Source of the DNA: a virus
DNA: 64,000 nt
Virus record (IMG/VR): IMGVR_UViG_3300008114_000012
Span: 62,001 to 126,000 of that record
Direction: 5' to 3' (one strand)
The notes under the pieces: model-generated
Told to the model about the DNA's origin: nothing
Database searches by the model: none
The model's input: only the letters and a program-made list of their open reading frames with translations
Translations under genes and position numbers: made by a program
Part shown: piece by piece, positions 5,448-50,583 of the stretch
Position numbering within the stretch: position 1 is the first letter of the stretch
How the letters are laid out: every line of letters begins with the position of its first letter

Positions 5448-5453
5448 TAGTAC

Positions 5454-24078: not shown

Positions 24079-26553
24079 ATGGCTGCTAATTTTTATAATT
24101 TTGAATTTTGTTGTAGTAATTTAGGAACAACCATATCGGCAAATGATATTGGTCAACCAAGTTTTGCGTCAAATCAGGTCTATTTTTTAGAATCATTAAT
24201 TTTGTCAGGATGTGTGAGGGCCATAAGTGTTTCCTCATCCCCAGCAGGTGAAATCATATTAGATGATGCGAATTATACTCTAACCAGTTATAATAGTTGT
24301 TCATTGTGTACAGGGTCAACTGGTGGATGTTTCCCACCTGTGCCAACCCCAACTCCTACAATCTATTATAGTTCAGATACTAGATGTGGTAATGGAATAC
24401 TAAAAAGAAATGAATGTGACCCTATAGTTATATTCCCAATGGGAGTTCAATGTGTTGGTGCAAATCCAACTTTGACGACAATACCTGATGGGTCTTTGTC
24501 ACTAATAATCACAGGTGGAACACCACCTTATACTGTTACGTGGAGTACTGGAGGTAATGGATTACTTCTAACTAATTTAGGTGTTGGGAGCTATAGCTCA
24601 ATTGTTGTGGATTATTATGGTGATTTCACGGCTTATACTACTTGTACTTTAACCGCTCCAACTCCAGTGCCTACAGAAACTAGATTAACCAACACACCAA
24701 CAGTTACACAAACAGTTACGCCGACCCCGGACCCTAGTTATCCTTCATTCTGCTTAACATTGACTAATATTAGGCCACCACAAACAATTAACATGTATTT
24801 TACATATACTGGGGAATTGTTAAACAGTATGCCTCAGTATTTAAGTAATAATAACTATAATATATATTGGTCCACAGACCAAGTCCCTAATAGTTGGGTA
24901 TTAGACGGCACACTAACCCAAGGTAATGTTATAAACTATACAACAGATATCACACCGTTATCAGGGTGGGTATTTTTGGACCCGCAAAATCAAGGGTCTG
25001 TTACAGGTATTTTAGGTGAATGTGCATCTTACGGAAATTTGTGTTTTACTTATAGACAAATCAAAGGTCCTGGTGACCCATTATATGAAGGTGTAATTGA
25101 TTTATTTTATACAGGACAGATTAATGGGTATCCTTCATGGCAATCTTCTGATGGTACGTATATTCTTACTTGGCAAACTACTAATGGAGGTAGATGGGTA
25201 ATTGATTTTACAACAAATCCTAAGTATACTAATCCGACTAATTCAAATCCATCGATACCGCCATTAACAGGATGGCAACAACCTGGTACAACACCACCTA
25301 GTTTTGCAACAATATATGAAGGTAATTGTACTCCAAGTACTACAGTCGGAACAGCATCCCTCAATGGAAGTAATAACAACACAAGCGGTGGGGGAAGTGT
25401 AATCGGAGGAGGACTTGGAGGTAATACTAGCGGTTTAGTTTCTGGAAATAATTTAGGAGGGGCTTTAACAACTAATAATCCATCCACGGGAGATATACCA
25501 TTTAATGATACGGAGGGTAGAGACGGAACTACAACCCTTGGTGGATATCAATGCGAGTGTATTGCGGTTAGAACAATAAGTACTTACCCCGGAATCGCAT
25601 TTTACACAGATTGTGATGGTAATCCCGCACAGATATCTGTACCTGGAGGTATAGGAGTAAATGCGAGAGCTTGTATATGTAGAAGAGTTGGGACAACAGT
25701 AACGGGAGGGGTTATTGAAGAGCCATGTCAAACCGCTCAAAGCGCGGGGGGACAAACTTCAATAACAAATTATTGTTTAGATATTTTGGGAGATTCTTGT
25801 AATCAAAATGTTACAGGTGGAGGAACTCGTAGTGCGGTTACTACCGCAGAAGATACCGGAATAATAAATGACGGTAACATAACTTTTAGGGCTTCAGGAG
25901 GATATCCACCCTACCAGTATTCAATAGACGGAGGATTAACATATAAATCTTCACCACTGTTCAGTAAATTAGGACCTGGCAGTTATAATACAATTATAAA
26001 AGATTCTTCAGGTAATACGTACAGTAATCAGGTTACTTTGTTCGGACCTGTAGGACCTACTATTTACCAAGTATCGCTTGAAACAAGCAACGTAATACCT
26101 AGAAGTGCTTCTAATGTAACTACAAGACAATTTACATCGACTATTAAGGTAACTCCTGATTTACCCGATGGAGTTGTTCTAACTTTTGATTTAATACATA
26201 CGGATACCTTTAGAAGGTCTCCATCATTAACTGCAGCTACTTTAGTTACGAGTAGTTTACTGAAAAAGAATTCATTTAATTACACAGCATCTACGGTGGT
26301 ATCAGATACAGGTACGACTCTAAATACAAATTCAGGTTGCCAACAGAAAGTAATTTATGTAAATAATTTAACAGAAACTTGGACATCTGTAAAATACTCA
26401 AAGACGGACACACTGTCTCTAATTACATCAACTAGTGTAACAAGAAATTCAATAGACAAGTGTTACATAGGAGAATCTATTGATGATTTTACATTAACAA
26501 ATTTAACAATAAGTGGATGTAGTAATTGCGGTGTTTCAAACATTACAGTATAA
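24079..26553 (+). CDS. Tail fibre/adhesin-like structural protein with SprB-like and tandem Trp-rich domains
   Basis: This is an 824-aa protein. Residues about 125-200 form a SprB-like repeat (PDGSLSLIITGGTPPYTVTW, then LGVGSYSSIVVDYYG). A short TP linker follows ([20 protein letters not shown]). Then come two similar domains of about 90 aa, ending SGWVFLDPQNQGSVTGILGEC and TGWQQPGTTPPSFATIYEGNC, an internal duplication. A Gly/Asn/Ser-rich flexible stretch lies near 425-475. A second SprB-like unit (GGYPPYQYSIDGG, GPGSYNTIIKDSSGNTYSNQ) lies near 610-660. The start has the FCCSNLG patch also seen in related phage fibres. It is probably part of the fibre network; the function is not proven. Confidence 0.72.
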   Translation: MAANFYNFEFCCSNLGTTISANDIGQPSFASNQVYFLESLILSGCVRAISVSSSPAGEIILDDANYTLTSYNSCSLCTGSTGGCFPPVPTPTPTIYYSSDTRCGNGILKRNECDPIVIFPMGVQCVGANPTLTTIPDGSLSLIITGGTPPYTVTWSTGGNGLLLTNLGVGSYSSIVVDYYGDFTAYTTCTLTAPTPVPTETRLTNTPTVTQTVTPTPDPSYPSFCLTLTNIRPPQTINMYFTYTGELLNSMPQYLSNNNYNIYWSTDQVPNSWVLDGTLTQGNVINYTTDITPLSGWVFLDPQNQGSVTGILGECASYGNLCFTYRQIKGPGDPLYEGVIDLFYTGQINGYPSWQSSDGTYILTWQTTNGGRWVIDFTTNPKYTNPTNSNPSIPPLTGWQQPGTTPPSFATIYEGNCTPSTTVGTASLNGSNNNTSGGGSVIGGGLGGNTSGLVSGNNLGGALTTNNPSTGDIPFNDTEGRDGTTTLGGYQCECIAVRTISTYPGIAFYTDCDGNPAQISVPGGIGVNARACICRRVGTTVTGGVIEEPCQTAQSAGGQTSITNYCLDILGDSCNQNVTGGGTRSAVTTAEDTGIINDGNITFRASGGYPPYQYSIDGGLTYKSSPLFSKLGPGSYNTIIKDSSGNTYSNQVTLFGPVGPTIYQVSLETSNVIPRSASNVTTRQFTSTIKVTPDLPDGVVLTFDLIHTDTFRRSPSLTAATLVTSSLLKKNSFNYTASTVVSDTGTTLNTNSGCQQKVIYVNNLTETWTSVKYSKTDTLSLITSTSVTRNSIDKCYIGESIDDFTLTNLTISGCSNCGVSNITV

Positions 26554-26579: not shown

Positions 26580-28985
26580 ATGGGATATATACTCAAAAAT
26601 ACGTCAGGATTAATAAATACAAAACTTACTGACGCAGGACGAAAAAAATTATCACAAGGTAAATTCAATATTACCTATTTTCAAATAGGTGATAGTGAAG
26701 TTTCGTACAATGGACTTGAGGATTTTTACAATCAATTTGACACAAATATTCTTGAAGCCGGATTCAACGACCATAATTCTGCCGGAGTACCACAATCAAA
26801 CAAACAGTACGTAAAATACCCTTATTATGTTGATGGTAATGGTGGAAACACCTATGGAATTCCTTACATGGATTCAATAGTAAGTCCTGTGTATAATACG
26901 GCAGTAATGAGAGGATTTTTTAATGCTGATACGTCATTTTTACCAACCTCATGGACTGTTTTAACAAATGGGCAATATGTGGTTAATTCTAACTATGTAT
27001 CAAATATGTCAACTATCAATGGTACTAACACTATTGAGTTAATATATAACGCATGTAACGCTAATACTTTAAGATTACCACAAGCCGGTGATATTGTAAC
27101 TATTTACTACGATGGTGCCGGATTTAATAATTGTGGATGTAATCCGATACAATATCCACCTTCAGCAACTCCTCCACCGTCACCATCGGCGTCAGCTGCG
27201 GTACCCGAACCATTCCCATGTTTAGTTACGCCAACACCTACCCCATCAAACCCACCATGTCCTGAACCAACACCAGTGCCATTATGTCCTCCTGAACCGG
27301 TTGCCACTTGTGAGATGACAATGTCAAGTTGTTATCATATTTTAACTTATAGAATAGTAGAAGTGTGTGGTGGTAGTATAGTTTTAGATAGACCGGCACC
27401 CGATTTTACAGTATTTAATAGTTCATGCTATGCTAGAATATTAATATATCCACCTAACATGACGGAGATATATGATAGTTACACACCACAAGCCCATTGG
27501 AATGATGATGTAATCAATTTTGAATCAATATGTGGTTATGACCAATTTGATGTTAAAATATGGAATATGAATATTCCTTGGTCTGAAGACCCTGCCGGAT
27601 TAATACCTTCTTTATACAAAGGGTATTCCTATTTTAATTCAAGAAGTTATATTGGGTCAAAAGAATTCTTTGGTTATATGTCAACAAGCGGACAAACTGA
27701 TAGTAGTTCAGTTTATTTTTATAATTCATTTGATGATAGGATAACAATTACCCCAGAAGAACAAAAGGCTATTGCAATTGTCCATTACACAAATAAAACC
27801 ATAGATTTATTTTATGGTGAAAAATTTGCAATGGAGTCAATTGACCCTGATAATCCGGTAGAAACCACGGGACAAGCAAGAAACTTCAAAGTACATCTCC
27901 CATGGATTATGTGGCATAAAAATCCTAATTGTTGCCAAGGACAAACATTTTATGTTGACCCCGAAGGATTCGACAATCTAAATTTATTCCAAGTTCATTA
28001 TCTAACGTCTAACAAGAATGAGGATATGAACGACCCTGGCATGAGATATTATCATTTATGGGACACTAATGCGAATGATGATGGATACCCAAGCAGAGTC
28101 GGTAAAGTATTCCCTGACCATAAGTTGGTTATTTTTGACGATGATGAGATAATTGCGGCTATGTCCTATAAATCGAATAGAAACTGGACTTTACCGGCAC
28201 CTAGAATTTCATTAGTTGCACCTAATACTTGTGGTGATGATAATGCGTCAACAACAGGAATATTATCAGGTAGTAATCAAACAATGTATATTACATACAG
28301 ATTTACTAACAATGTTAATTTTACAAATTCATTACACTGTAATTATTATATTAGACAACAAGGACCTAATTTAGATTGTGGTAACCCAATATCACAAAAT
28401 GTGAGTGTAAGATTTGGTCCTGAGTTTCCGTGTTTATCATGTGTAGGGTGCGGCGGCGGATGTGTTATGACATCAGGGTTCTTTGCTGAAAATATTGAAA
28501 TAATCTGTCAAATAGTTGAAGGAAATCAAAGACCAATTCCTGACGAATGGAAAATAATTGATTTTACATCTCAAATAAGTAATACAATTGTAGATGGATG
28601 TATTTTACAAAGTGGATTAACCGCATCTACATTTGTAATCACTCAAGAATTATATGACGCCGCTGATTATTATAATCTCAACGATTATATTCCTATGGTT
28701 AGTTTAAACCCATCTGGTCAAACCTTAAATTTTGGTGATGAGTATTATTTCTATGGTAATATAGAAACGGATATTCAAGCAACCATTTATGAGATGAGGT
28801 ATAAGGTTAATTTGAGTTTCTCTGAATTTTTGGTACCGTCTAATCCTACTTACAATGGTGGTAGTAGTTACATTACCGACATTGGTCTTTACGATAATGA
28901 AAAAAATCTTATGATTATATCGAAAATGCAGTCACCTGTATTAAGACAGGGTATTCAGCAATTTTTGGTAAAATTTGATTTTTAA
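26580..28985 (+). CDS. Tail/baseplate protein with N-terminal LTDAGRKKLSQG/GDSE module
   Basis: This 801-aa structural protein begins MGYILKNTSGLINTKLTDAG, then RKKLSQGKFNITYFQIGDSE. This matches a module seen at the N terminus of many phage tail or baseplate proteins (tail-fibre-like L-T-x2-G-R-x2-L-x2-G, then F-x-(I/F)-GDSE). A Pro-rich Cys-containing linker (PPPSPSASAAVPEPFPC and on to about residue 245) separates it from a large aromatic beta-rich body. Cys clusters near 620-635 (CLSCVGCGGGC) suggest disulfide or metal stabilisation. The C-terminal part ends YDNEKNLMIISKMQSPVLRQ, typical of tail proteins whose last domain reports position on the fibre. This is the last gene of the first structural block. 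Confidence 0.75.
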   Translation: MGYILKNTSGLINTKLTDAGRKKLSQGKFNITYFQIGDSEVSYNGLEDFYNQFDTNILEAGFNDHNSAGVPQSNKQYVKYPYYVDGNGGNTYGIPYMDSIVSPVYNTAVMRGFFNADTSFLPTSWTVLTNGQYVVNSNYVSNMSTINGTNTIELIYNACNANTLRLPQAGDIVTIYYDGAGFNNCGCNPIQYPPSATPPPSPSASAAVPEPFPCLVTPTPTPSNPPCPEPTPVPLCPPEPVATCEMTMSSCYHILTYRIVEVCGGSIVLDRPAPDFTVFNSSCYARILIYPPNMTEIYDSYTPQAHWNDDVINFESICGYDQFDVKIWNMNIPWSEDPAGLIPSLYKGYSYFNSRSYIGSKEFFGYMSTSGQTDSSSVYFYNSFDDRITITPEEQKAIAIVHYTNKTIDLFYGEKFAMESIDPDNPVETTGQARNFKVHLPWIMWHKNPNCCQGQTFYVDPEGFDNLNLFQVHYLTSNKNEDMNDPGMRYYHLWDTNANDDGYPSRVGKVFPDHKLVIFDDDEIIAAMSYKSNRNWTLPAPRISLVAPNTCGDDNASTTGILSGSNQTMYITYRFTNNVNFTNSLHCNYYIRQQGPNLDCGNPISQNVSVRFGPEFPCLSCVGCGGGCVMTSGFFAENIEIICQIVEGNQRPIPDEWKIIDFTSQISNTIVDGCILQSGLTASTFVITQELYDAADYYNLNDYIPMVSLNPSGQTLNFGDEYYFYGNIETDIQATIYEMRYKVNLSFSEFLVPSNPTYNGGSSYITDIGLYDNEKNLMIISKMQSPVLRQGIQQFLVKFDF

Positions 28986-34914: not shown

Positions 34915-37900
34915 ATGGATACTATAAGTTTATTTAACATATCGGGTGTTAATCCTCCATTCATAATATACATATGTGATATTTACGGCGATAATTGTGT
35001 CGAAGTTGCTATAGTAAATAACTTTGTTCCCCCGATTATTACACTTAATGTCCCTATAGTTTTCCAAGACTCGGCGGCGGTTGGTGTTAAAATAATAACC
35101 GCGGACGGATGTGAAAGATTAGAAACTGTTTTATGTAGTATTATAACCACCCCAACCCCTACAATATCGATAACACCAACGATTACCCCTACAATCACCC
35201 CAACTATTACTGAAACACCTACAATCACCCCAACTATTAGTATTACCCCAACTATTACCCCGACGGTTACTGAAACACTCACACAAACTCCAACCAATAC
35301 ACAAACTCCAACAATAACTAATACGGAGACACCAACTAATACGGTAACACCAACCTTAACCCCAACACCTACGAATAATGGTTGTTTTTGTTACTTTGTT
35401 GATATTACCCAGTTAGATATCAATAGAGCTAGCGGTAATACTGAAACAACTGCAAATGGTGTTGTTAATTTAGTGTATTATGATTGTTCCGAGGGTATTA
35501 TAACCTCTGCAATTACTGGAAGTGGAATTTATTATATCTGTAACAATCCATCGGAAACTATAGATGGGTTTAGTATTCCGGTACTATTGAATTACAGTCA
35601 AAATAATTTTAGTTATAGTAATGTATTCACACCATTATCATTCTCTAGTACGTTTTTTACAGATTATTCAACTTGTTCACAAAGCGGGGATTGTGTTTTG
35701 CCAAGTAGCACCCCAACACCAACTCCAACCCCTACAGTAACTAATAATGGTTGTTTTTGTTATTTTGTTAATATTTCGGCAATTGATTTAGCAAATGCTA
35801 TAAACAATACCAATCCCTCATTTGATGGTGTTGTAAATATTCTATACATAGATTGTAAAGGGGTACTACAAAGACTTACTATATCTTCTCCTGGTATAAC
35901 TGTTATATGTAACAATGTTCAATCTTCTATTAACTCATTCGGAATAGATGTTTATATAACATATTCTAATAACGATGAGTCTTATAATAATAGAAATGAT
36001 ATAATCCAAAGTTTTTATACCACTGATAATACCAATTGTACTGAGGCTTCTTCATGTGTTCCACCAACCCCTACTTCTACTAAAACACCAACCGCCACCC
36101 CAACAGGTACTGCGACGATAACCCCTACAAATACATTAACTCAAACACAAACACCCACTACAACATCAACATCAACGCAAACACCGACCGCAACACCAAG
36201 TCCATTCCCATCAAGAACTCCAAGTAATAGCCCAACACCCACAGTAACACCAACTGTAACACCATCACTAACTGTTTCAGGTTTCCCAACAGAAACGCCA
36301 ACCTCGACCCAAACACCTACCGTTACTCCAACAGTGACCCAAACACCCACTAATACTTTAACATCAACACCAACAGTTACTGAAACCCCGACCAATACTG
36401 TCACACAGACTCTGAGTCCAACTAGTACCGTAACATCAACATCAACTCAAACACAAACTCAAACTCCTACAGAAACAGTTACTAATACCCCTACAGTGAC
36501 TCAAACACAAACTCAAACTGTTACAATCACAGAAAGCCCAACGAATACCCCCACAATAACTGAAAGCCCAACAAATACCCCAACAATCACATCAACTCCT
36601 ACTGAAACATCTACTCCGACATCTACCAATACTAATACTCCGACCAGTACGAGTACATTAACAGTGACCCCAACAACAACTCAAACTGTCGCATCTACTA
36701 ATACACCAACACAGACACCTACCGCAACTGTTACTGAAACTCAAACACCAACGCCAACTAATACTAACACATCAACACCTACTAATACTAACACATCAAC
36801 ACCTACTAATACTGTAACCGTAACTGAAACTAAAACACCAACGCCAACCAAAACACCAATTAATTGTAATTGTATTGAGTTTTTCGCCGCTGCGGGTGGA
36901 GCTGTTATATCTTATAATAAATGTGATGGAACTTCAGTTACTAATTTATTCGTACCTGGAGGGTCTACGGTTAAGGATTGTATTATAAATGAAGAATATA
37001 CAATAACATCTGGTGTAATAGTAACTAATTTTGGTTCATGTATCGACAATTCATGTCCTACTCCGACACCAACACCTACCACCACCGAGACCCCAACAAA
37101 TACGGTAACACCAACTCCGACCACTACTGAAACTCCGACTAGTACAGAGACCCCAACAAATACCGTTACCCCAACTCCGACTATAACAGTCACTCCAACT
37201 AAAACTGAATTTAAACCTCTAAACTTATGGTTTAGTGGTTGTTGTCAACCAGGACAAATCATTCAATTATATGAAGTTCCTGGTGAAATAGGTCAAACCA
37301 TAATTGAAGGAGATGTTTATTATATTGAATCACCACAGTTCAAGGGATGCGCGACTAATATAGCTCAAACTCTAACGGATTTACAATACTTGTATTTGAA
37401 TATTACTAATCAATTCACTTGCCAAGATTGTATAGATTCAAATCCTTGTCCAACATCTACACCTACTCCGACACCAACCGAAACTCCAACTCAAACACCA
37501 ACTCAAACACCAACTACAACTCAAACGCCAACCGAAACAAATACCCCAACAGTAACTCAAACACAAACAAGTACAATCACTAGTACTCCAACAAACACGG
37601 TTACTAATACTCAAACTCAAACAGTTACACAGACAGTGACTGTTACTGAAACGATAACAAGTACTCCTACTCAAACAAATACAACAACTAATACTCCAAC
37701 TCAAACCAGTACAGTTACCAACACATCGACCCCAACATCAACAGAGACATCTACGCCTACGCCAACCAACACTACAACATCTACACCTACAACAACAGAA
37801 ACACCCACACCTACCCCAACACCAACGACAACACAAACACCAACCATAACCTCAACTTCAACACAAACACCAACAGTCACACCAACTAATACTATTACCG

Positions 37901-39360
37901 TTACGCCTTCAACAATATTCTGTGTTGACTGTGTTGAATCAGGTTACACATATGTATTCAGTTGTGCTCCAACACCTTCTATCACTAAAACGCCAAGTGT
38001 TACCCCAACGATAACCTACACACCGACAGTCACCCCAACCAATACAAGTACCCCAACAAAAACACCTACCCCAACTCAAACTAATACTGTAACTGTAACA
38101 ATAACTAAAACTTCGACACCTACAAACACAACAACTGTTACTAACACTACAACACAGACACCAACACCAACTGAAACACCGACCGCAACGGTGACTAGTA
38201 CACAAACACCAACTGTAACAGTTACTAGTACTTCTACACAAACACCAACGAATACTCAAACACCTACTACTACACAAACACCAACCCCATCAATTACTGA
38301 ATATAAGCCATCATTCAGACACTTTAGTGCATGTTGTTCTCCACATATAGTATTCAGAGTTTATGAGATACCTGGATTGACAGCCACAACCATTGTTGAA
38401 GGTAATATTTACTATATTGAGACAGGTGTGTTCAGTGGTTGTGCAACAAGTATTGCCGAAGTATTTACACCAAATAATTATTTGTTTGTTGGTGTGACGG
38501 CCCAAACTGATTGTGATGAATGTACGTTCTCAAATCCATGTCCGACACCAACCCCTACGCAAACCCCTACACAAACAGAAACTCCAACACAAACCCCAAC
38601 ACCGACACAAACTCAAACATCTAGCCCTACTAACACCCCAACTTTAACACCTACCCCAACTAAAACTCCGGCGCCAACTTGTGATTTGATTGTTACTTTG
38701 GTGAATACCGAATCAATTAGTTCAAATACTGAAATTAATATTTGGTATGATGATTCAGGCTCTATGGGGTCTACACGAGCTCCTTTGGAGCAAATGATTG
38801 CACCTGGTGGAATACTTGAAACTTGTTTGATAGGTGTTTATAACAATGATATTACGTTATATAATGAGAGAGTTCAATTCTTCACAATGCAAACTGGCCC
38901 ATTAGGTAATGTAAATGAAAGATTTGTTGCGTGTTTAGCAACTTCGAGAAATGCTGGAAGAGCAGTTGATACTAGCGTTGATTTAGTAATCAATTTGGTT
39001 TTCCAAGACGAGAGTGGTGGAGCGTATGTTACAGGTGGAACTTTTACGCCTACAACTGTATTAGACCCGGATTATGGGACTGACGTTACAACTTTGAGAA
39101 ACCTCTTATCTTCAATTGATTATGGATTAAGAGGTGTTGTATTTGCGGTAATAAATGAGGGACAACCTACCTTCCAAGACTTGGTACAAACAACTTTTGT
39201 AAATGCGGGAATATATTCACCACCTAACAACTTAAGTGATTATTACTTGACCAATTTAAACTACCAATTAGGTATAAACGATGGAGATACTTCGACTTAT
39301 TATTATAATTTGATAATCTCCACACTTAATTCTTTGGGTATCGTAACACCGGGATGTTGA
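34915..39360 (+). CDS. Giant modular fibre/adhesin with Pro/Thr linkers and C-terminal VWA-like domain
   Basis: This is a 1481-aa modular protein. Residues 1-75 are an Ig-like cap shared with the gene at 32361. Two related modules start [12 protein letters not shown] (about 157) and [12 protein letters not shown] (about 280). A smaller CNCIEFF module sits near 651. Two GCC/ACC-type modules, [14 protein letters not shown] (about 766) and [15 protein letters not shown] (about 1130), flank a short [15 protein letters not shown] unit (about 1002). All are joined by mucin-like TPTxTxT linkers. The last 225 residues look like a von Willebrand A domain: [10 protein letters not shown] contains the D-x-S-x-S MIDAS motif (Asp1279, Ser1281, Ser1283), a metal-dependent ligand-binding site. 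No signal peptide is present. It is probably a long receptor-binding fibre. Confidence 0.75.
36757..36814 (+). repeat. 24-bp tandem repeat in Pro/Thr linker
   Basis: ACTAATACTAACACATCAAC plus ACCT occurs twice perfectly (36757-36780 and 36781-36804) and begins a third copy. It encodes an 8-residue TNTNTSTP unit. Perfect identity amid codon-diverse neighbours points to recent slippage or unequal recombination. Confidence 0.85.
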
Positions 39361-39373
39361 TATATATAAAGGG

Positions 39374-39517
39374 ATGCCAACAGCACTAATACAATCGGTA
39401 AATTATGCGGGACAATATGGGGATATAACATTCAATCCCCAAACCGGCGGCACCGCTTTAGTGTTTGCTGTGAATTCAATTTACTTGCACCTACACCGAC
39501 CCCTACCGCAACAATAA
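39374..39517 (+). pseudogene. Probable 5' end of the giant fibre gene, separated by a frameshift
   Basis: ATG at 39374 follows a TATATATAAAGGG leader and encodes 47 residues beginning MPTALIQSVNYAGQYGDITF, then NPQTGGTALVF, before a stop at 39515-39517. This looks like the start of a fibre protein. In the -1 frame the DNA is open from 39370 through 50583, and within the overlap it reads CCEFNLLAPTPTPTATITKT, a Cys patch leading into a TP linker. One extra base near the TTT at 39462-39464 would join the two frames into VFCCEFNLLAPTPT. The cause may be a sequencing or assembly indel, a real mutation, or a programmed -1 shift. No canonical slippery heptamer is obvious. Confidence 0.6.
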
Positions 39518-39591
39518 CTAAAACGCCTACCATAACTCCAACTGAAACTGTAACTCCCACAAAAACACCAACTCCGACAATAACCCCCACA

Positions 39592-42500
39592 ATGACCATG
39601 ACTCCAACCCCATCAACAATATTCTGTGTTGATTGTGTTGAGTCAGGTTATACGTATGTCTTCAGTTGTGCCCCAACTCCATCTATAACAAGAACGCCAA
39701 GTGTTACACCAACAATTACTTATACACCTACTCAAACATCAACTAAAACTCCTACTCAAACACCAACGACGACTCAAACACCAACAATTACCAAGACATC
39801 AACTCAAACACCAACAATTACCAAGACATCAACCCCAACTAGAACGCTTACTCCAACAGGAACTAATCCTCCATCTGTTCCCGAATGTGCGGTAATATTT
39901 AATTCATTACAAAATGTATTTTTCTATGATGTTGACACGGACACTACTACACAACTTATAGTTCCTGACACAGTTGGTTCCGCGACAAATGATATTGCCC
40001 ATACTTCAAGTAAGTTGTGGATGGCTAGTGCCAGTGAGATATACGAATGGGATATTACTTTGAGTCCGTTTACCGCGGTATTTAATCGTGTAATTACATT
40101 ACCATCAGGCATAGGTCCTGGGTTGGGGGCAATTAATAACACAACCTTGATTGCGGTCCAAAGCGGGGGTAATCCAAAACAGGTTGTTTCGGTAAATATT
40201 ACTACAAATACTGCGGTATTTAAAACTCTATTCCCAATGTTGATAAACAGAGGTGTTGCGGGAGATATTATTTTAACAACAACAAATAAGGTTATTATTA
40301 CGACTAACGCGACCGCGGCACCATTCGGACAATTCATAACACAATATAATTTCTTAAATGGTGACCCTGAAGTCGATATTCAATTGAATCCAACCATCAC
40401 CCAGCCTTGGGGCATTTTTCAAGATAATGGTGAAATTTATATCATGGATGGTAACGAAACTAATAATGTATTCCATATTGATAAAAATTATCCGTACACA
40501 ATTACATTAACAGGTGATACAGGATATTCGGTGTATGGGGCTTCTCAATTACCAAATTGTTTAGATGTAAACTTCATACCTCAAATAACACCAACACCAA
40601 CCCAAACACCAACCCAAACTCCTACAACGACCCAAACACCAACAGTAACTGTAACTGAAACAATTACTAATACCCCAACTAATACCCCAACCCCAACTAA
40701 GACACCCGTGTCCTGTGACTGTTTTGAAATAACCGCGGTTGGGAATAATGCGGTTATTGACTATTTTAAATGTGGTAGTGAAGGGGTTTCGGTAAGAAAA
40801 TTAATAGAACCTGCAAGACCATTTAAAGTTTGTTTAGAAAATAGTGGAGTTACTACTCTTTCAGGGGTAACTCAAATTAGTAATTTTGGTCCTTGTATTG
40901 ACGGAGAATGTGCTAGCCCAACCCCAACTCCTACAGTCACCCAAACACCAACAAATACATTAACACCTACAATTACCCCAACAAATACATTAACACCTAC
41001 AATTACCCCAACTGAAACCCAAACTCCCACAATTACCTCAACTAGTACTCAAACCCCAACTAGTACTCAAACTATAACTCCTACACTTACCCAAAGTCCA
41101 ACACCAACAGTAACTCTTACTAATACCGTGACACCAACAATTACTGAAACACCAACAAGTACGGCAACACAAACACCAACAACTACCACAACCCAAACCC
41201 CAACAAGTACAGAAACACCAACCACAACCCAAACTCCAACAAGTACACAAACACCTACCACAACCCAAACTCCAACCACAACCCAAACTCCAACAAATAC
41301 AATGACTGTAACTCCGACTCCGGTTTGTATAGACGGATGTTCAGTTTTATATGTCGATAGTGAATCATTAATTTATTCTTATGACTATAATACAGAAACG
41401 TCTACAGTAATTTTTGACCCCAAGGCAACAGTAAGAGATATTGCTAACACTAGCTCAAGGTTATTCATTACTATCGTAAATAGAATTCAAAGATACAGTT
41501 TTTCAACTTGCCCTGTGAGTGTTACATTAATTGATGAAATAACTAGACTTTTCTTGGGTGATGGTTTATTTGCAATAAATGATACCACATTAATTATAAC
41601 TAGTACACAAGCAATTGGTCAAGAAAACGTACAAGAATTAAACTATATAACAAATACAGTAACCCCTAAATTCTCACTACCAACCGGTTATTCGGTAAGA
41701 GGTGATTTTATTCTAACAACCGGCGGAAAATTCATAGTTTCAATGTTCCAAGGATTGAGTAACTATATTTTACAATATGACTATTCAACTGGTGAACAAG
41801 AAGTTTTATTCCAAGTTTCTCAAATTATTGCCGGATTCTTTGAATTTGGTGGAAATATCTATGCTGTGGATACTTCAGGTATTGTTTATCAAGCAATTTT
41901 AGATTCTCCATGGGGGTTAGTTTCTACAACTTTAGACCCATTAACTTTTACAGGGGTTATTAAAGGTACATCCCAAGAGTTATCGTGTTTACCTACAAAT
42001 TTTAACATAGTAACCCCAACCCCAACTCCTACCCAAACCCCAACTCCTACTGTCACCGTTACCGAAACACCTACTATGACGGTAACTGAAACTCCGACTC
42101 AAACGGAAACTCCGACTCAAACCCCAACCAATACTGAAACACCTACACAAACTTCTACCCCAACACCAACACCTACTTTAGATTGTTTTTGTTACACATT
42201 TGTAAACACCAGTTTATTAGACAAACAAAATGTAAGTGGTAAAGATTGTAATAATATAAATTTTGAGTACTCATTACAAATTTCAGGTTCTGAAGGTGAC
42301 ACCGTAAGTTTATGTGCGTCATCAAGTTTAGTTTTAGACCCATTTATTGCGGTATTCAATAACGGAGTTTGCGAAGGATTTTGTGGCACCTCAACACCAA
42401 CACCAACACCGACAGAGACTCCCACACCAACCATTACTGACACTCCTACACAAACCCCAACAATTACCGAAACAAACACACAAACCCCAACTCAAACTCC

Positions 42501-45500
42501 AACAAACACTGTTACAGAAACATCCACATCAACACCGACCCCAACTCAAACTGAAACACCGACAAATACTGTAACCTCTACTCCAACAAATACAGTAACC
42601 TCTACCCCAACGATAACATCTACATCAACTCAAACTCCAACGGTTACATCAACTCCAACTCCATCAATTACCGAGTACAAGCCAGCTATAAGAACATTTA
42701 GTGGATGTTGTTTCCCATTTGAAATTTTTAAACTTTATGAAATACCTGGATTAACCGCTAACACAATAACTGAAGGTACAGTTTACTACATTGAATCCGG
42801 TGTATTTAGCGGTTGTGCTACAAACATTGCCGAAACATTCACACAAAATAATTATCTATTTGTTAATATTAGTGCCCAAACTAGTTGTAGCGGTTGTTCG
42901 GCATCCTACCCATGCCCGAGCTCAACCCCGACACCTACTGTAACATCAACACCAACAGTTACTCCAACGATTACCTCGACTCCAACGATTACCTCGACCC
43001 CAACTCAAACTGAAACCCCAACTCAAACTGAAACCCCAACTCAGACACAAACTTCAACAGTAACATCAACACCTACAGAAAGCCCAACTTCGACACAAAC
43101 TCAAACTCAGACACAAACTCAAACTGTAACACCAACAAAAACGTCAACCCCAACAAGAACACCTATTGAGTGTGTTTGTTATTCTATAACCAATATAGGT
43201 GAATTTTTTGGTAGTTATAACGGAATTTTATGTAATGGTGGACCTTCAGGAGGAATACCAATAGGTCCTGGTGTAACATTTACCGCATGTTATGCTAAAG
43301 GGTCACTTCAAACTGTGGGAGGTACTTTAACATTTCTTGAGAATGGGTCTTGTGAGAACTCAATACTTTGTCCTACTAGAACTCCGACTCCTACAAGAAC
43401 TGGTACCCCGACCCCGACTCCTACAACTACTGAAACACCTACAAATACCGTAACGCCAACTACGACAACTACTGAAACACCGACTAGTACATCAACACAA
43501 ACACCAAGTGTAACCAACACTATAACATCAACACCTACTCAAACATTGTGTTGTACCTCATGGACACTATATGGAGGTTTAGGTCAATTACTCGATAATG
43601 GATTTGTTATTAAACCTCCTTTGAGGGTAGGGGATGATTTTGCATTGATACCTACAAATGTAGGCTCACCTGGTACTTTAGTTGGTCAAGTTTTGGAACT
43701 AATCAGTGTTAGCCCTCCACTATCGCCCCAATATTTTACAATTTTAACTGCTACGTTTAACCCTATAAATTCGGCCTACTTATTAACATTTACCCCTACT
43801 TTAACAATTAATTTGGGTAGTACCTTCCAGAGTATAATTTATAACATTTATCAGTCAGGAGGTACACAATTCAATGTTTACAATTGTGGAGGGTCTCTTA
43901 CGACTTTGAATTTGAATAACAATGAAATATTGGTCATTCCTTGTTCCTATGATGTTCAGGTTATATCAGGATTCGGGTATGCTGAGTCTGACCCATCATG
44001 TGTATGTGTCACTCAAACTCCAACACCAACATTGACACCTACTGTGACATCAACAATAACTCAAACCCCAACAAATACAGTAACCGTTACTCAATATACT
44101 TGTAATTGTTATTTTATAAATGTGCCAGACATTAGAGATGGAGTAAATTTAGTATTTTTAGATTGTTTGGGTAGTTTGATTTCAATAGCACCAAATAATT
44201 TTGGAAATTATTGTGTTAGAGAAATAATTGATTATGGTTCAGGTACCGCCGAACTTGTAGGACTATGTATAGATGGAAATTGTCCAACACCAACGCCAAC
44301 TCCAACTCAAACCGAAACCCCAACCCCAACTGAAACTCCAACCCAAACAATTACCCAAACTCCAACTGTTACTCAGACCTCGACACCAACTGTTACTCAG
44401 ACCTCGACACCAACTGTTACTATCACGGAATCGGCTACACAAACTCAAACACCAACACCGACTGAAACTCCAACTAATACTTTAACACCGACTGTGACAA
44501 TTACTGAATCTGTTACGCCAACAAGGACATTAACACCAACCAAAACTCAGGCACCATGTTTATCTAGCTGTGATGTGTTGTTATTAGACAATGTCGGTAG
44601 AGTTTATATATACAATTCAGTCACTAACTCTCCACTGTACTTAGGTATTGATGGTCCTGATGGTTCCTTCGATATTGCACATACAAATAACAAAATATGG
44701 TTAAATAGAGGAACTTCATTATATGAATATGATATAATATTATGTCCGTTCTCGGCGACATTCAGCAGAGAAATTTCAGGTTCAACGGCATTTAGTGCTG
44801 GATTATTTGCAATAAATGACACTACTTTAATTGCTAATAATGGAGCGACCCCTTCTTCAATTTTAGAGATTGATGTTTCGACTAATCCTTACACAGTTAC
44901 AACAAAATTCTCTTTATTACCAGGAAGAAGAGTTTCAGGTGATTATGTTCTAACAAATTCAGGTAAGTTAATTGTTAGTAATTTTTCGGGAACAAACCCA
45001 AATGCACCCACTGGTGTTTACATAACACAATATAACTATATAACTTCGGCAACACCCCCTGTAGATAACAATGTTGATATATTAATATCCCCAACAATTG
45101 TATTCCCATATGGGTTATATCAATATGGAGGTGGTTTCTATATTCTGAGTGCGAATGGTACACAATATACTTTAGACCTAAATCCTCCGTACACACTTAC
45201 CGCGGCACCTACAGTTCCTTTACCTCCAAATACAATCAACGCCGCATATTTTGGTGCATCCCAATCCAACGGATGTTTCGACAATAACATAGTACCTGTG
45301 TCACCAACACCAACCTCAACTCCAACCCCGACCCCTACCCCAACTGCAACAATAACACAAACCCCAACTATAACACAGACTTCAACACCTACACCAACAA
45401 TAACTTCTACAGTAACACAGACTCCAACCCAAACTCAAACACCAACTTCAACAATTACTGTTACACCAACTCAAACAAGTACGGTTACATCAACCCCAAC

Positions 45501-48500
45501 TGTTACATCAACCCCGACACCAACCATAACTGAATACAAGCCGGCAATTAGAACGTTTAGTGGATGTTGTTTCCCATTTGAAACCTTTAAGATTTTCGAA
45601 ATACCTGGATTAACCGCAAATTCAATAACTGAAGGCACGGTTTATTACATTGAGTCCGTAGGATTTAGTGGATGTGCGACAAACATTGCAGAGACATTCA
45701 CTCAAAACAATTACCTATTTGTTAACTTGAGTGCTCAAACAAGTTGTAGTGGTTGCTCGACAAATTACCCATGTCCAAGCTCAACACCAACACCTACAGT
45801 TACATCGACTCCTACATTAACGCCAACGCAAACCCAAACACCAACGCAAACCCAAACACCAACTGAGACATCCACTCAAACACCAACTGAGACATCCACT
45901 CAAACACCAACCCAAACTCAAACTTCAACACAAACACCGACTAATACACAAACATCAACCAACACCCCTACCACAACAGTAACACCAACTTTGACACGTA
46001 CTCCTGATACTTGTAATTGCTACACATTCTTTAACATATCAACTTCACAAAGTTTGACTGTAGATTTTATTGATTGTACAGGCTTACAAAACCAAATTAC
46101 AATAAATTACGGAAATAGTGCTCAAGTTTGTGTTAAAAATAATATTTTCTCGGGTACCCCATCAGGGGCTTTAGTATCATTCTTAAATGGTGATTGTACA
46201 AATGGATGTCCGACAACTACCATACAAGCTTGTAACCCATTTGTAGTGAATGGAACAAATAGAATTATTTATACTTATGACCCAATAACTAACACACAAA
46301 TTCCATTACCTATTAATACCGAATCTGTTTCTATATACGATATTGCAACAAATGATAACTATTTATGGATATATGGTAATTTCGCAACATTAGGAAATGG
46401 TATAAAAGAATATTTTATAACAACATCCCCATTTACATCAAGTTTAAATAGATTTATATCGGGTTCTACACTATATCAATCCACAAGAAATGGTTTAGCG
46501 GTTTTAAATAACACCACATTAATAACGGCTTCAGGTACGGCTGGTAATGTGATAGTGAGTTTAAATATTTCATCAAATACTTGGGTTGCAACTCCGTTAT
46601 TTACTTTACCAACAAATAGAGTCCTAAGGGGTGATTTAACTTATACAAACACAGGTAATATTATTGCGTTAACTTATAATAATGTTGCGGGTACCGGGTC
46701 TTTTTTAACACAGTTTGATTTATTTGGTAATCAGGAATTAGAATTCCAAATAGGTAATTCTGTTGAAGGATTTGGTTTGTTCATGTATAATTCACAAATA
46801 TTTACGGTTGCCTCTTCATCGGCGTCTCCCGCTGTAGTTAGAAGAGATTTGAACTTCCCCTATACATCTTTAACAGTAAACAATATGACAATAACAAATG
46901 TTGGGTTTGCCCAACCGTTAAGTTGTTTAAATGTTAATTTCATAGGAGTTACCCGAACACCAACACAAACCCCAACACCTACCCCAACACCTACTACCAC
47001 TAAAACTAATACGCCTACATCAACGCAAACCCAAACCCAAACTCCAACTAGAACCTCAACCCCAACAAACACCCAAACTCCTACTATTACAAGTACCTCC
47101 ACAATTACTCCTACCGTTACAAGAACCGCCACAATTACTCCTACCGTTACAAGAACATCAACGATTACTCCTACCGTTACAAGAACATCAACAATTACTC
47201 CAACAATAACACAAACGGCAACCCAAACGAATACCCCAACAGTAACACAAACGGCAACTGTTACACAAACTGCAACTCAAACTCCTACACCTACCGAAAC
47301 TTCTAATCTGTTTGCTTGTACTTGTTATAATTTCTTCAACACATCAAATAACCAACCCGGAACAGTTACTTATTATAATTGTGATGGGGTATTTAGTTCT
47401 GTAACGGTTAGTGCCACTTCATATGTTCAATTATGTGTTTCAGGTAATTCAACAAATCCATTATACACCGCAACGACCCAAATTACTGCTATAGATGAGT
47501 TAGGTGATTGTACAGTAAGTTGCCCAACAATTAATTTGGATAGTTGTATTTCCTTTTTAGCTGGGGGGCCGGGTAACATCATTCAATCATATGATTTTCA
47601 AACTAATACCACAACTTTTTTACCCATACCAAATAGACCATGGTCAATGCTTGGAATTGCAAATACTTCAAATAAACTTTGGGTTCACGGTACTTATCTT
47701 GGTTTCACCAGTGGAGGTATAAGAGAATGGGATATAACATTTTCACCGTTTAGTGCAACATATAATGGCAGAACTATAAACATACAAAGTAATACTATAT
47801 TACCTAATAGTAATGCATGTGGTTTAGTTGCAATCGATAATTTTAATTTATTAAGTGTGTCAGGTGCTACTGCAGGGTCCCAAAGTGTGGTTAATGTTGA
47901 TATTTCAGATACCATAACCAATAACGCGGTATTTACGAAACTTTTTGATTTACCAAGTAATAGAAGAATATTAACTGATTTAGTTTTTACTCAAACTGGT
48001 AAGATTATAATAATGACCCAAACAACTACCCCTGTCAAAATATTTATTACTCAATATGATATACTTGGAAACATTGAGGTTGATGTTCCATTATTCACAT
48101 CAGGAATAGATGCAAATAGTGGATGGTCTATTTTGATTAATTCTAATAATTTGTATATTGTAAGAGCTACTACTCCTGGAGAAATTTATCAGGTAAACTT
48201 AACTTCACCATATTCGGCAACCTTACTTTCTGAAAGTTTACCAGTTACTGTGACGGACCAATCCCAATCACCAGAGTGTATCACAGTTGAGTTTATACCT
48301 GTTACAAAAACACCGACTCCAACACCTACTAAAACTCCAACACCTACCGTGACTATGACGATAACGCCAACTTCAGGTGCAACAGAAACACGGACTCCGA
48401 CGCCGACTACCACTCAAACTTCAACACCAACAATAACATCTACGATTACTCCGACAATAACGGCAACACCAACAAGAACGGCGACTCAAACACCAACAAT

Positions 48501-50583
48501 AACAAGAACGGCGACTCAAACACCAACAATAACAAGAACGGCGACTCAAACACCGACAATAACAAGAACGGCGACTCAAACACCGACAAGAACTGCGACA
48601 CCAACAAGAACACCAACTAGAACGGCAACAAATACTCCATCGATTACCCCAACCATAAGTATAACTCCAACAATAACCTCAAATTTACCATGTAAATGTT
48701 TTAATTTTTACAATACAAGTGATACGGTAAATGGTACTCTTATATACACTGCTTGTAATTTAACAGTTAGTTCTACAACGGTATCGGCTAATTCATTTGT
48801 ACAATTGTGTGTAAATTTAAGCGGATATAGTGGGTCATCACAAATAACATTTGTTAACCAAGTTGGTTCATGTGTAAATGGTTTTTGTCCTAACATATCT
48901 ATAAATTCTTGTGATTTGTTATCGGTTAAAAAAGAACCTTCTGGTCCGACTAATGGTCTTTGGCAGATTATGAGTATTAGAAACGAAAGTCTTTTGTATT
49001 TGCCGGTTTCTGGTAGAACTGTAGGAACCAACGCTTTAGCGAGAACGTCTAATAAAGTTTGGGTACTAGGATTTTTTACGGCATTAGGTGGTTCTAGAAT
49101 AAGGGAATACTCAATTACCCAAAATCCTTGGTCTGCGGTGGTGACTAATAACTATACATTACCGACAAATTTGCCGTCTGTTATCGACAATGGTATGGCG
49201 GCAATCGATGATGAGAATTTTATTGTTGGGTCCGGAACTGCATTGAATGTTATTGCAAAATTAAATGTTTCAGGTGGAATTTTATCATCTACTAAAATTA
49301 TAGATTTAATATCACCATTTACGGTTTTTGGTGACATGATTTATACTACAACCAATAAAGTCATAGTTGCGGTTAAAAATACAATTAATACTAACATATG
49401 GCAAATTCACCAATATGATGTTAATGGGACTTTTGAACTGGCGGTAGACGTTTCATCTATATCTTTATTTAATTCCGGAATAAATTTCGCGGTAGTTAAT
49501 AACCAATTATATTTATTACCACATAATCAAACATATAATAATTATTATTTAATTAATTTAAATAATCCTTACAATACCACAATTCAGTCGGCTCTTGGAG
49601 GTAGTGCCCCAAATGACGTTGCTCAAAATCCTGAATGTATTAATATTCAGTTTATCCCTTCTACACAGACACCAACACCAACAAGAACAAAAACTCCGAC
49701 ACCAACAAGAACTCCAACAAGAAGTGCAACACCAACAAGAACTCCAACAAGAAGTGCAACACCAACAAGAACACCAACAATAACCATGAGTCCGTCGATT
49801 ACACCAAGTCGAACAGTAACAATGACACCTTCATCTATTGGTATCTATACTCAACCATTGATGGTAAGTTTTTCTGGAACATCTACTGTAATATCAAGAT
49901 ACGATGTAACAACAAATACTATTACAACTTTAGATGTACAAAGTTCCGGTATTTTACCAAATCAAGATATTGCATGTACTCAAAATAAATTTTGGTTATC
50001 AAATCAGGGGTCTGGTAACATAATAAAAGAATATACTTATACCGCGTCACCTTTCAATTATGTGTTGAATAGAACTTTGAATATACCAGTTACATTGACT
50101 GATGGATTAACTGTAAGGACTGTGGGAGGTATTGAATATTTGATTGGATGTACAGGTAATACAACTATTGTTGAAATGGATATATCATCAACAACGGCCA
50201 TAGTTACCGATAAATTTGATTTACCTCTTAACAGAACCATAGGTGCTGATATGATGTATACTAATACTGGAAAATTAATAGTTGCCAACTATTCAGGTGG
50301 TAATACAACAGTCGGATTTATGACGCAGTATAACTATGAAACAAATACTTTAGAGATTGATAGGGCATTACCAACTACTTATGCTGCTGGCGGTCAAAAA
50401 GTTTATTTTGTATCTAATAATAATATCTATAGTACTAGTATCTCTGCTAGTCTTTCGGTTGTTTATCAATGGAATACAGATAGTAATATTAACAATCCAC
50501 TTCCATTACAATCCTTCGAGTTACCACTACTTCGTGGAAGCGCTCAACCACAAGAATTCATAAACATTAATTTCACCTCATAA
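39592..50583 (+). CDS. Giant fibre/adhesin with seven beta-propeller-like modules and Pro/Thr linkers
   Basis: This is a 3663-aa protein from the first in-frame ATG; coding clearly extends upstream (see 39374). Seven modules of about 230-260 aa lie at about residues 95-328, 581-806, 1655-1902, 2213-2450, 2651-2900, 3106-3355 and 3418-3663. They share IAHTSSKLW, (E/R)(E/W)(W/Y)DITLSPFTA, AINDTTLI and a GDxxxTxxGKxI motif. The short periodic strands suggest a beta-propeller. Between them sit small Cys modules (C-x-C-Y/F-x-F type, about 65 aa), two CCFPFE modules and a unique CCTSWTLYG domain near 1320. TP-rich linkers join them all. It lacks a signal peptide. It probably forms a very long flexible fibre for multivalent surface binding. 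Internal 24- and 30-bp repeats show ongoing expansion. Confidence 0.75.
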   Translation: MTMTPTPSTIFCVDCVESGYTYVFSCAPTPSITRTPSVTPTITYTPTQTSTKTPTQTPTTTQTPTITKTSTQTPTITKTSTPTRTLTPTGTNPPSVPECAVIFNSLQNVFFYDVDTDTTTQLIVPDTVGSATNDIAHTSSKLWMASASEIYEWDITLSPFTAVFNRVITLPSGIGPGLGAINNTTLIAVQSGGNPKQVVSVNITTNTAVFKTLFPMLINRGVAGDIILTTTNKVIITTNATAAPFGQFITQYNFLNGDPEVDIQLNPTITQPWGIFQDNGEIYIMDGNETNNVFHIDKNYPYTITLTGDTGYSVYGASQLPNCLDVNFIPQITPTPTQTPTQTPTTTQTPTVTVTETITNTPTNTPTPTKTPVSCDCFEITAVGNNAVIDYFKCGSEGVSVRKLIEPARPFKVCLENSGVTTLSGVTQISNFGPCIDGECASPTPTPTVTQTPTNTLTPTITPTNTLTPTITPTETQTPTITSTSTQTPTSTQTITPTLTQSPTPTVTLTNTVTPTITETPTSTATQTPTTTTTQTPTSTETPTTTQTPTSTQTPTTTQTPTTTQTPTNTMTVTPTPVCIDGCSVLYVDSESLIYSYDYNTETSTVIFDPKATVRDIANTSSRLFITIVNRIQRYSFSTCPVSVTLIDEITRLFLGDGLFAINDTTLIITSTQAIGQENVQELNYITNTVTPKFSLPTGYSVRGDFILTTGGKFIVSMFQGLSNYILQYDYSTGEQEVLFQVSQIIAGFFEFGGNIYAVDTSGIVYQAILDSPWGLVSTTLDPLTFTGVIKGTSQELSCLPTNFNIVTPTPTPTQTPTPTVTVTETPTMTVTETPTQTETPTQTPTNTETPTQTSTPTPTPTLDCFCYTFVNTSLLDKQNVSGKDCNNINFEYSLQISGSEGDTVSLCASSSLVLDPFIAVFNNGVCEGFCGTSTPTPTPTETPTPTITDTPTQTPTITETNTQTPTQTPTNTVTETSTSTPTPTQTETPTNTVTSTPTNTVTSTPTITSTSTQTPTVTSTPTPSITEYKPAIRTFSGCCFPFEIFKLYEIPGLTANTITEGTVYYIESGVFSGCATNIAETFTQNNYLFVNISAQTSCSGCSASYPCPSSTPTPTVTSTPTVTPTITSTPTITSTPTQTETPTQTETPTQTQTSTVTSTPTESPTSTQTQTQTQTQTVTPTKTSTPTRTPIECVCYSITNIGEFFGSYNGILCNGGPSGGIPIGPGVTFTACYAKGSLQTVGGTLTFLENGSCENSILCPTRTPTPTRTGTPTPTPTTTETPTNTVTPTTTTTETPTSTSTQTPSVTNTITSTPTQTLCCTSWTLYGGLGQLLDNGFVIKPPLRVGDDFALIPTNVGSPGTLVGQVLELISVSPPLSPQYFTILTATFNPINSAYLLTFTPTLTINLGSTFQSIIYNIYQSGGTQFNVYNCGGSLTTLNLNNNEILVIPCSYDVQVISGFGYAESDPSCVCVTQTPTPTLTPTVTSTITQTPTNTVTVTQYTCNCYFINVPDIRDGVNLVFLDCLGSLISIAPNNFGNYCVREIIDYGSGTAELVGLCIDGNCPTPTPTPTQTETPTPTETPTQTITQTPTVTQTSTPTVTQTSTPTVTITESATQTQTPTPTETPTNTLTPTVTITESVTPTRTLTPTKTQAPCLSSCDVLLLDNVGRVYIYNSVTNSPLYLGIDGPDGSFDIAHTNNKIWLNRGTSLYEYDIILCPFSATFSREISGSTAFSAGLFAINDTTLIANNGATPSSILEIDVSTNPYTVTTKFSLLPGRRVSGDYVLTNSGKLIVSNFSGTNPNAPTGVYITQYNYITSATPPVDNNVDILISPTIVFPYGLYQYGGGFYILSANGTQYTLDLNPPYTLTAAPTVPLPPNTINAAYFGASQSNGCFDNNIVPVSPTPTSTPTPTPTPTATITQTPTITQTSTPTPTITSTVTQTPTQTQTPTSTITVTPTQTSTVTSTPTVTSTPTPTITEYKPAIRTFSGCCFPFETFKIFEIPGLTANSITEGTVYYIESVGFSGCATNIAETFTQNNYLFVNLSAQTSCSGCSTNYPCPSSTPTPTVTSTPTLTPTQTQTPTQTQTPTETSTQTPTETSTQTPTQTQTSTQTPTNTQTSTNTPTTTVTPTLTRTPDTCNCYTFFNISTSQSLTVDFIDCTGLQNQITINYGNSAQVCVKNNIFSGTPSGALVSFLNGDCTNGCPTTTIQACNPFVVNGTNRIIYTYDPITNTQIPLPINTESVSIYDIATNDNYLWIYGNFATLGNGIKEYFITTSPFTSSLNRFISGSTLYQSTRNGLAVLNNTTLITASGTAGNVIVSLNISSNTWVATPLFTLPTNRVLRGDLTYTNTGNIIALTYNNVAGTGSFLTQFDLFGNQELEFQIGNSVEGFGLFMYNSQIFTVASSSASPAVVRRDLNFPYTSLTVNNMTITNVGFAQPLSCLNVNFIGVTRTPTQTPTPTPTPTTTKTNTPTSTQTQTQTPTRTSTPTNTQTPTITSTSTITPTVTRTATITPTVTRTSTITPTVTRTSTITPTITQTATQTNTPTVTQTATVTQTATQTPTPTETSNLFACTCYNFFNTSNNQPGTVTYYNCDGVFSSVTVSATSYVQLCVSGNSTNPLYTATTQITAIDELGDCTVSCPTINLDSCISFLAGGPGNIIQSYDFQTNTTTFLPIPNRPWSMLGIANTSNKLWVHGTYLGFTSGGIREWDITFSPFSATYNGRTINIQSNTILPNSNACGLVAIDNFNLLSVSGATAGSQSVVNVDISDTITNNAVFTKLFDLPSNRRILTDLVFTQTGKIIIMTQTTTPVKIFITQYDILGNIEVDVPLFTSGIDANSGWSILINSNNLYIVRATTPGEIYQVNLTSPYSATLLSESLPVTVTDQSQSPECITVEFIPVTKTPTPTPTKTPTPTVTMTITPTSGATETRTPTPTTTQTSTPTITSTITPTITATPTRTATQTPTITRTATQTPTITRTATQTPTITRTATQTPTRTATPTRTPTRTATNTPSITPTISITPTITSNLPCKCFNFYNTSDTVNGTLIYTACNLTVSSTTVSANSFVQLCVNLSGYSGSSQITFVNQVGSCVNGFCPNISINSCDLLSVKKEPSGPTNGLWQIMSIRNESLLYLPVSGRTVGTNALARTSNKVWVLGFFTALGGSRIREYSITQNPWSAVVTNNYTLPTNLPSVIDNGMAAIDDENFIVGSGTALNVIAKLNVSGGILSSTKIIDLISPFTVFGDMIYTTTNKVIVAVKNTINTNIWQIHQYDVNGTFELAVDVSSISLFNSGINFAVVNNQLYLLPHNQTYNNYYLINLNNPYNTTIQSALGGSAPNDVAQNPECINIQFIPSTQTPTPTRTKTPTPTRTPTRSATPTRTPTRSATPTRTPTITMSPSITPSRTVTMTPSSIGIYTQPLMVSFSGTSTVISRYDVTTNTITTLDVQSSGILPNQDIACTQNKFWLSNQGSGNIIKEYTYTASPFNYVLNRTLNIPVTLTDGLTVRTVGGIEYLIGCTGNTTIVEMDISSTTAIVTDKFDLPLNRTIGADMMYTNTGKLIVANYSGGNTTVGFMTQYNYETNTLEIDRALPTTYAAGGQKVYFVSNNNIYSTSISASLSVVYQWNTDSNINNPLPLQSFELPLLRGSAQPQEFININFTS
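40951..41010 (+). repeat. 30-bp tandem duplication in linker
   Basis: A 30-bp unit encoding TNTLTPTITP occurs twice, perfectly, at 40951-40980 and 40981-41010. The surrounding linker uses many different Thr and Pro codons, so this pair is a recent duplication. Confidence 0.9.
44368..44415 (+). repeat. 24-bp tandem duplication in linker
   Basis: Two perfect copies of a 24-bp unit (44368-44391 and 44392-44415) encode VTQTSTPT twice; a third partial copy follows. Confidence 0.88.
45861..45908 (+). repeat. 24-bp tandem duplication in linker
   Basis: Two perfect copies of AACTGAGACATCCACTCAAA plus CACC (45861-45884, 45885-45908) encode TETSTQTP units. Just upstream an 18-bp CCAACGCAAACCCAAACA unit is also doubled. 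Confidence 0.88.
47101..47220 (+). repeat. 30-bp tandem repeat array in linker
   Basis: Four 30-bp units (47101, 47131, 47161, 47191) encode TITPTVTRTA/S; the first three are nearly identical and the fourth is diverged. A more distant copy precedes at 47071. Confidence 0.9.
48481..48600 (+). repeat. 30-bp tandem repeat array in linker
   Basis: Units at 48481 and 48511 are identical, 48541 differs by one base, and 48571 is diverged at its end. The encoded unit is ATQTPTITRT. This is the cleanest array in the window. There are no spacers, so it is not a CRISPR. Confidence 0.92.
49701..49770 (+). repeat. 30-bp tandem repeat in last linker
   Basis: Two perfect 30-bp copies (49701-49730, 49731-49760) and ten bases of a third encode TPTRTPTRSA units just before the final propeller-like module. 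Confidence 0.9.

Follow-up and report, generated by a model that had tools for sequence, protein, structure and literature searches.

Phage receptor-binding proteins built around a single propeller are already known. The nearest working analogue of the protein described here is gp45 of Staphylococcus phage phi11, in which a five-bladed propeller serves as the host-recognition module of the baseplate and is thought to hold GlcNAc (PMC4901313). Propellers also occur in other known or suspected phage receptor-binding proteins, namely PRD1 P2, with a single, distorted five-bladed propeller, and phiKZ gp131C, with a single seven-bladed one (PMC4901313). The tentaclins, too, are flexible receptor binders of phages in which beta domains follow one another in a string, and they are defined by an N-terminal C-type lectin and Ig domains (PMC10743442). 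Within the window, the 64-kb stretch of a 200,114-bp virus record that we analysed, an open reading frame (ORF) at 39592-50583 on the plus strand encodes 3,663 aa and shares the (here predicted) five-bladed propeller with phi11 gp45. Compared by architecture, the two differ: each gp45 chain contributes a single propeller to a compact trimer with a coiled/helical stem, whereas the present chain carries seven diverged propellers together with Thr/Pro linkers and Cys modules. No C-type lectin or Ig match to Pfam was found in the giant protein, and the N-terminus of its intact relatives is another domain. We found no published account of a phage chain bearing five to eight diverged propellers, although each ingredient of the protein has a precedent. 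The initial annotation had called the design unusual among phage fibres, which holds against described phages but not among related freshwater phages, where propellers, Cys modules and Thr/Pro linkers are common. We consider that the protein is probably a virion-borne, very long and flexible adhesin or receptor-binding fibre, presumably attached to the tail or baseplate, of a bS21-clade jumbo myophage of Bacteroidota. It would take the known single-propeller binder further, to arrays of five to eight propellers that evolve independently in exchangeable slots, and would let multivalent host recognition in widespread freshwater phages be studied as a natural experiment.

The sequence modules, predicted fold, top-face variability, slot orthology, module turnover and linker repeat variation of this protein were all computed directly. 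A profile search resolves the chain into seven propellers (B1-B7, about 231-254 aa each), seven small six-Cys modules (CxC1-CxC7), two EYKP modules and one LCC module, joined by more than 1,100 aa of Thr/Pro linker, in the order B1, CxC1, B2, CxC2, EYKP1, CxC3, LCC, CxC4, B3, EYKP2, CxC5-B4, CxC6-B5, CxC7-B6, B7. The alternation of propellers with small Cys modules and mucin-like linkers that had been proposed is therefore recovered, with the Cys modules found by profile and the linkers by composition scan. At the level of sequence the picture of beads on a string is borne out, although three Cys modules are fused tightly to propellers instead of floating free.

The propellers, all on the plus strand like the other parts of the chain, lie at 39883-40575 (B1), 41326-42003 (B2, profile match 203 bits), 44554-45291 (B3, 248 bits), 46219-46941 (B4, 239 bits), 47533-48294 (B5, 247 bits), 48898-49653 (B6, 208 bits) and 49840-50574 (B7, C-terminal, 207 bits). 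Used alone as a query against the genome, B1 matches the six others with E-values from 3.7e-37 to 6.7e-14, as well as copies in other genes, and pairwise identity among the seven is 24-38%, so that their relatedness is far beyond chance. The seven copies of a module of about 240 aa announced from the first reading are thus present within the ORF, but they are not all the propellers of the virus: one more lies in the window gene at 20560-24048 and six lie in two genes outside the window. Similarly, the proposed signatures IAHTSSKLW and DITLSPFTA are exact in B1 and only degenerate in the other copies (for example IAHTNNKIW, IATNDNYLW and IACTQNKFW). The module also occurs alone, as indicated by proteins of about 640 aa in other viruses (L135-L145) that have a single propeller and no TPT linkers. 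No relative of B1 was found in the annotated phage collection, and a weak search with a B5 alignment, using only two short patterns, gave no relative in bacterial and archaeal genomes.

An AlphaFold2 model of B1 built with 38 modules (pLDDT 95.4, pTM 0.92) predicts 20 strands arranged as five blades of four strands, with the C-terminal strand (219-221) completing blade 1 in a 1+3 closure. Structure prediction of a single module, which had been put forward as the check on blade number, gives five blades in a closed ring, and the tandem model of CxC5 with B4 (pLDDT 94.3, pTM 0.92) agrees with it. The Foldseek matches of the B1 model are propellers throughout. The nearest predicted viral structures are two uncharacterised models from Virus NIOZ-UU157, A0A7S9SU35 (about 1,100 residues; TM 0.83 and 26% identity over the module) and A0A7S9STY0 (about 940 residues). 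The best solved structures are mostly the six-bladed LRP2, LDLR and LRP6 (TM about 0.5-0.63), and by sequence the family matches solved propellers weakly, mainly the designed Pizza proteins. LRP2 and LDLR-type receptors are likewise giant chains that alternate propellers with small Cys-rich modules, but their YWTD propellers have six blades where five are predicted here, and with such TM scores and no sign of homology the resemblance is at most a convergent analogy.

The most conserved residues of the propeller are W46, Q222, Y186, P204 and a pair of Cys, one at each end of the module. The two Cys occur together or not at all with few exceptions (34 modules with both, 3 with neither and 1 with only one; Fisher p=5e-4, on counts that ignore relatedness), and both are missing from the last module of each of the three orthologues, B7 included. 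From this co-occurrence and joint loss, the pair probably forms a ring-closing disulfide. The same conserved positions bear on the idea that some of the propellers degrade glycans instead of binding them. Glycosidases are common among propellers, and a sister fibre gene (L009 19514 to L010 3755), with Thr/Pro linkers and one propeller, carries a reprolysin-type metalloprotease domain (PF13688, E=1.2e-12; HEIGHTHGCSH), so catalytic domains do occur on such fibres. However, the giant fibre has no enzyme family match in Pfam or NCBIfam, and the top conserved residues include no obvious acid pair, which makes an enzymatic role quite improbable in our estimate.

Between the propellers lie the smaller modules. 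The CxC modules map by profile to 40711-40917 (CxC1), 42181-42393 (CxC2), 43168-43377 (CxC3), 44098-44289 (CxC4), 46009-46215 (CxC5, fused to B4), 47314-47529 (CxC6, fused to B5) and 48688-48894 (CxC7, fused to B6), and the tandem model predicts CxC5 to be almost entirely beta. A Pfam match to RseC_MucC, below cut-off and within a Cys stretch, was discarded as chance. The two EYKP modules, at 42673-42918 and 45532-45777, each have 82 aa and are 89% identical to each other, and the LCC module (43546-44031, about 162 aa, identified by profile) has no Pfam match above cut-off. A short element at 39616-39675 is also present in the upstream gene. That gene, a Thr/Pro fibre at 34915-39360, ends in a domain with the motif DDSGSMGS, which resembles a von Willebrand A metal site (putative) and has no Pfam match.

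The linkers total about 1,111 residues, of which 48% are Thr and 17% Pro. The composition scan places them at 39679-39864, 40582-40704, 40918-41313 (the longest, 132 aa), 42010-42180, 42394-42672, 42919-43161, 43378-43545, 44032-44097, 44290-44547, 45301-45531, 45778-45999, 46957-47298, 48307-48669 (with 30-bp repeat units, from repeat analysis) and 49660-49830 (Thr/Pro/Arg, with a 30-bp tandem repeat). In-frame tandem repeats with units of 12, 18, 24 and 30 bp encode them. Among near-identical contigs the length of the last linker is 57, 67 or 77 aa and so differs by single 30-bp units. At 0.25-0.31 nm per residue, the fully stretched linkers would together span a contour length of about 280-340 nm.

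The ORF of 3,663 aa is present in the window contig as first described, but its assigned start is wrong. Aligned with contigs L011 (part of a 322,372-bp record), L012 and L013, which match the window at 99.97-99.99% identity, the window contig lacks 79 bp at 39455/39456. In all three contigs the frame runs unbroken from an ATG (window equivalent 39374) through MPTALIQSVNYAGQYGDITFNPQTGGTVSVGVQLLPFNYVADYVYGVYVVCFSAFSVCCEF into the linker. The intact protein has 3,782 aa, and the 99 residues gained at this end contain a conserved N-terminal domain. The remaining 5' part of this domain (MPTALIQSVNYAGQYGDITFNPQTGGT...) is found at 39374-39455 on the plus strand, and the missing 79 bp put the rest of it out of frame. 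A programmed frameshift at 39374-39592 was dropped as an explanation because the frame of the relatives is continuous and the window carries the deletion, which may have arisen during assembly or be a natural variant. The suspicion that repeat mis-assembly inflates the whole ORF would draw on this deletion, on a linker 60 bp shorter in the window than in near-identical contigs, and on the near-identical contig L124, in which about 20 residues are missing within B4 (window 46314-46374) with the frame kept, as a real variant or an assembly error; yet the same module order recurs, whole or partial, in four further near-identical contigs and the architecture is common to two diverged relatives, so we regard an artefact of this kind as extremely improbable.

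These two diverged orthologues share the N-terminal domain and differ in their modules. The G009 orthologue has 4,033 aa and eight propellers, and the G008 orthologue has 3,407 aa and five propellers, together with an unrelated segment of repeated YSYDGINWS-like motifs at the position of CxC4. In the tree, B1 to B7 each cluster with their positional counterparts in other phages, with the exception of G008 slot 3, and a topology in which the seven form one clade is rejected (p=1e-5). The slots were therefore distinct before the phages split. A replacement of the G008 slot-3 module from elsewhere is only suggestive, since p-AU is 0.059 despite a tree support of 95/84.

The same comparisons identify the top face, here the d-a and b-c loops by the usual propeller convention, as the part that changes fast. 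Identity between slots of one phage is 0.11 on the top face and 0.35 on the bottom, and identity with the same slot in another phage is 0.33 and 0.59, respectively. Across 38 modules the mean loop entropy is 2.73 bits on top against 1.99 on the bottom (p=2e-7), within the seven it is 1.97 against 1.39 (p=7e-6), and loop length also varies more on the top face (p=0.005). The top loops are thus far more variable than the bottom ones. This pattern is consistent with the suggestion that the modules diverge enough for each to bind a different ligand, which would then be slot-specific. Relaxed constraint on the top loops is a possible alternative; propellers in general have more freedom in the loops of this face, so that variability alone is no proof of selection by ligands. 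In a search for a diversity-generating retroelement, no reverse transcriptase was found in G000 or G001.

The phage matches, by its gene content and layout, the bS21-encoding jumbo phages of freshwater Bacteroidota. In the 322-kb near-identical record, bS21 lies on the minus strand (G001:116341-116496, 32.7 bits, over cut-off) between portal and prohead protease; the 200-kb window record gave no bS21 match. The described bS21-encoding freshwater Bacteroidetes phages are defined by the same reverse-strand bS21 within a terminase-portal-protease block and have a similar genome size, and the main text describing them makes no mention of propellers or fibres (PMC9723584). Within the window, the genes at 4989-7292 encode T4-like baseplate wedge proteins, and a sheath gene is present in the same record. 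Two structural-looking genes, at 20560-24048 and 24079-26553, contain SprB repeats (PF13573), the first of them along with its propeller. SprB repeats are known from gliding adhesins of Bacteroidota, and their presence here fits a Bacteroidota host. Relatives of the gene that follows, at 26580-28985, occur in 298 candidate stretches of IMG/VR, and the annotated phage collection holds a relative neither of this gene nor of the one upstream of the giant fibre.

Given the baseplate gene neighbourhood, we infer that the protein is present in virions; the wedge genes and the other fibre-like genes nearby suggest a fibre. The conserved N-terminal domain is N-terminal wherever it is found, including on other proteins (L021, L040), and can be read as the domain that would dock the fibre to the particle, while the lack of a frame for this domain in the window's own copy counts against the fibre reading. 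Multivalent weak binders on flexible linkers would also suit a different role, in which a capsid or neck protein tethers the virion to mucus, exopolysaccharide or particles and so raises host encounter, not receptor choice. The neighbouring gene with SprB repeats and one propeller (20560-24048) matches a Hoc-like head-decoration family marginally, but this match reaches just 1.9e-6 and no stretch passes alone, and the giant fibre gene belongs to a cluster that starts with baseplate wedge genes and is distant from the terminase-portal-protease block. We therefore judge a decoration of the head or neck rather unlikely. In a fibre attached to the tail or baseplate, the Thr/Pro linkers would act as extended spacers, and the display units would be the seven five-bladed propellers and the small Cys-rich beta modules. 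The hypervariable top face of each propeller would meet surface ligands, glycans or surface proteins being the likeliest, and the multiple heads would provide avidity and perhaps several specificities, making the fibre a long-reach multivalent tether. Phages would gain, lose and exchange modules in such a system, and repeat slippage would alter linker length.

The linkers may in addition be glycosylated by the phage itself. At the start of the record, outside the window, a gene (L009 260-1507; G000:260-1507) encodes a glycosyltransferase of PF11397 (E=1e-70, 239 bits against a cut-off of 21) with a DSH motif in QIDSHMRF. We take PF11397 to correspond to CAZy family GT60. GT60 includes the Trypanosoma cruzi enzyme that places alpha-GlcNAc on Thr of mucins (PMC9472816, PMC3769586). 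The glycosyltransferase gene is followed by large genes (L009 1513-8466) that match methyltransferase, TylF and HtrL_YibB families and, marginally, GT25, and downstream of these lies a 2,837-aa fibre with five propellers. The PF11397 gene is common in this phage clade. Of 13 records with a length of at least 100 kb, 12 carry it, and all enzyme-positive long records of that set (15/15) contain a TPTPTPT-coding pattern, for which the reversed-pattern control gives at most 1. Among 50,697 phage records, the enzyme is found only in the jumbo phages XacN1 (Xanthomonas), CM1 and RAS14 (Stenotrophomonas), and cultured jumbo phages thus encode the same PF11397 enzyme; two of these three were tested for the TPT pattern and gave 16 and 6 matches, whereas seven other jumbo phages together yielded a single one. 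Records found through ribonucleotide reductase are useless as a control for this link because they appear to be largely of the same clade. PF11397 genes thus tend to co-occur with Thr/Pro linkers, and studied members of the family start mucin-type Thr glycosylation, which together suggest that the linkers may be modified. In the fullest form of this proposal, the GT60-type GlcNAc-transferase would start O-glycosylation of the linkers, the neighbouring transferases and methyltransferases would lengthen these glycans or cap them, and the linkers, stiffened and coated with glycans, would hold seven lectin-like propellers off the virion as a phage-made mucin. We regard this as doubtful, because 8 of 22 further enzyme-positive records have no pattern match, 42 matches occur in an enzyme-negative fragment, and DNA is often the substrate of phage glycosyltransferases (discussed in PMC12619734). 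DNA modification is an alternative role for the cluster. If the proposal is true, a virus of bacteria would carry out mucin-type Thr glycosylation, which has so far been studied in protists.

Two further genes were seen among the related sequences. The fibre of a relative (L054 13043-19267), with propellers and Thr/Pro linkers, appears by eye to end in DUF285-like repeats (SNVISVSNML...), and a 513-aa ORF at L010 11012-12553 contains an iron/manganese superoxide dismutase domain (PF02777, E=1.9e-40).
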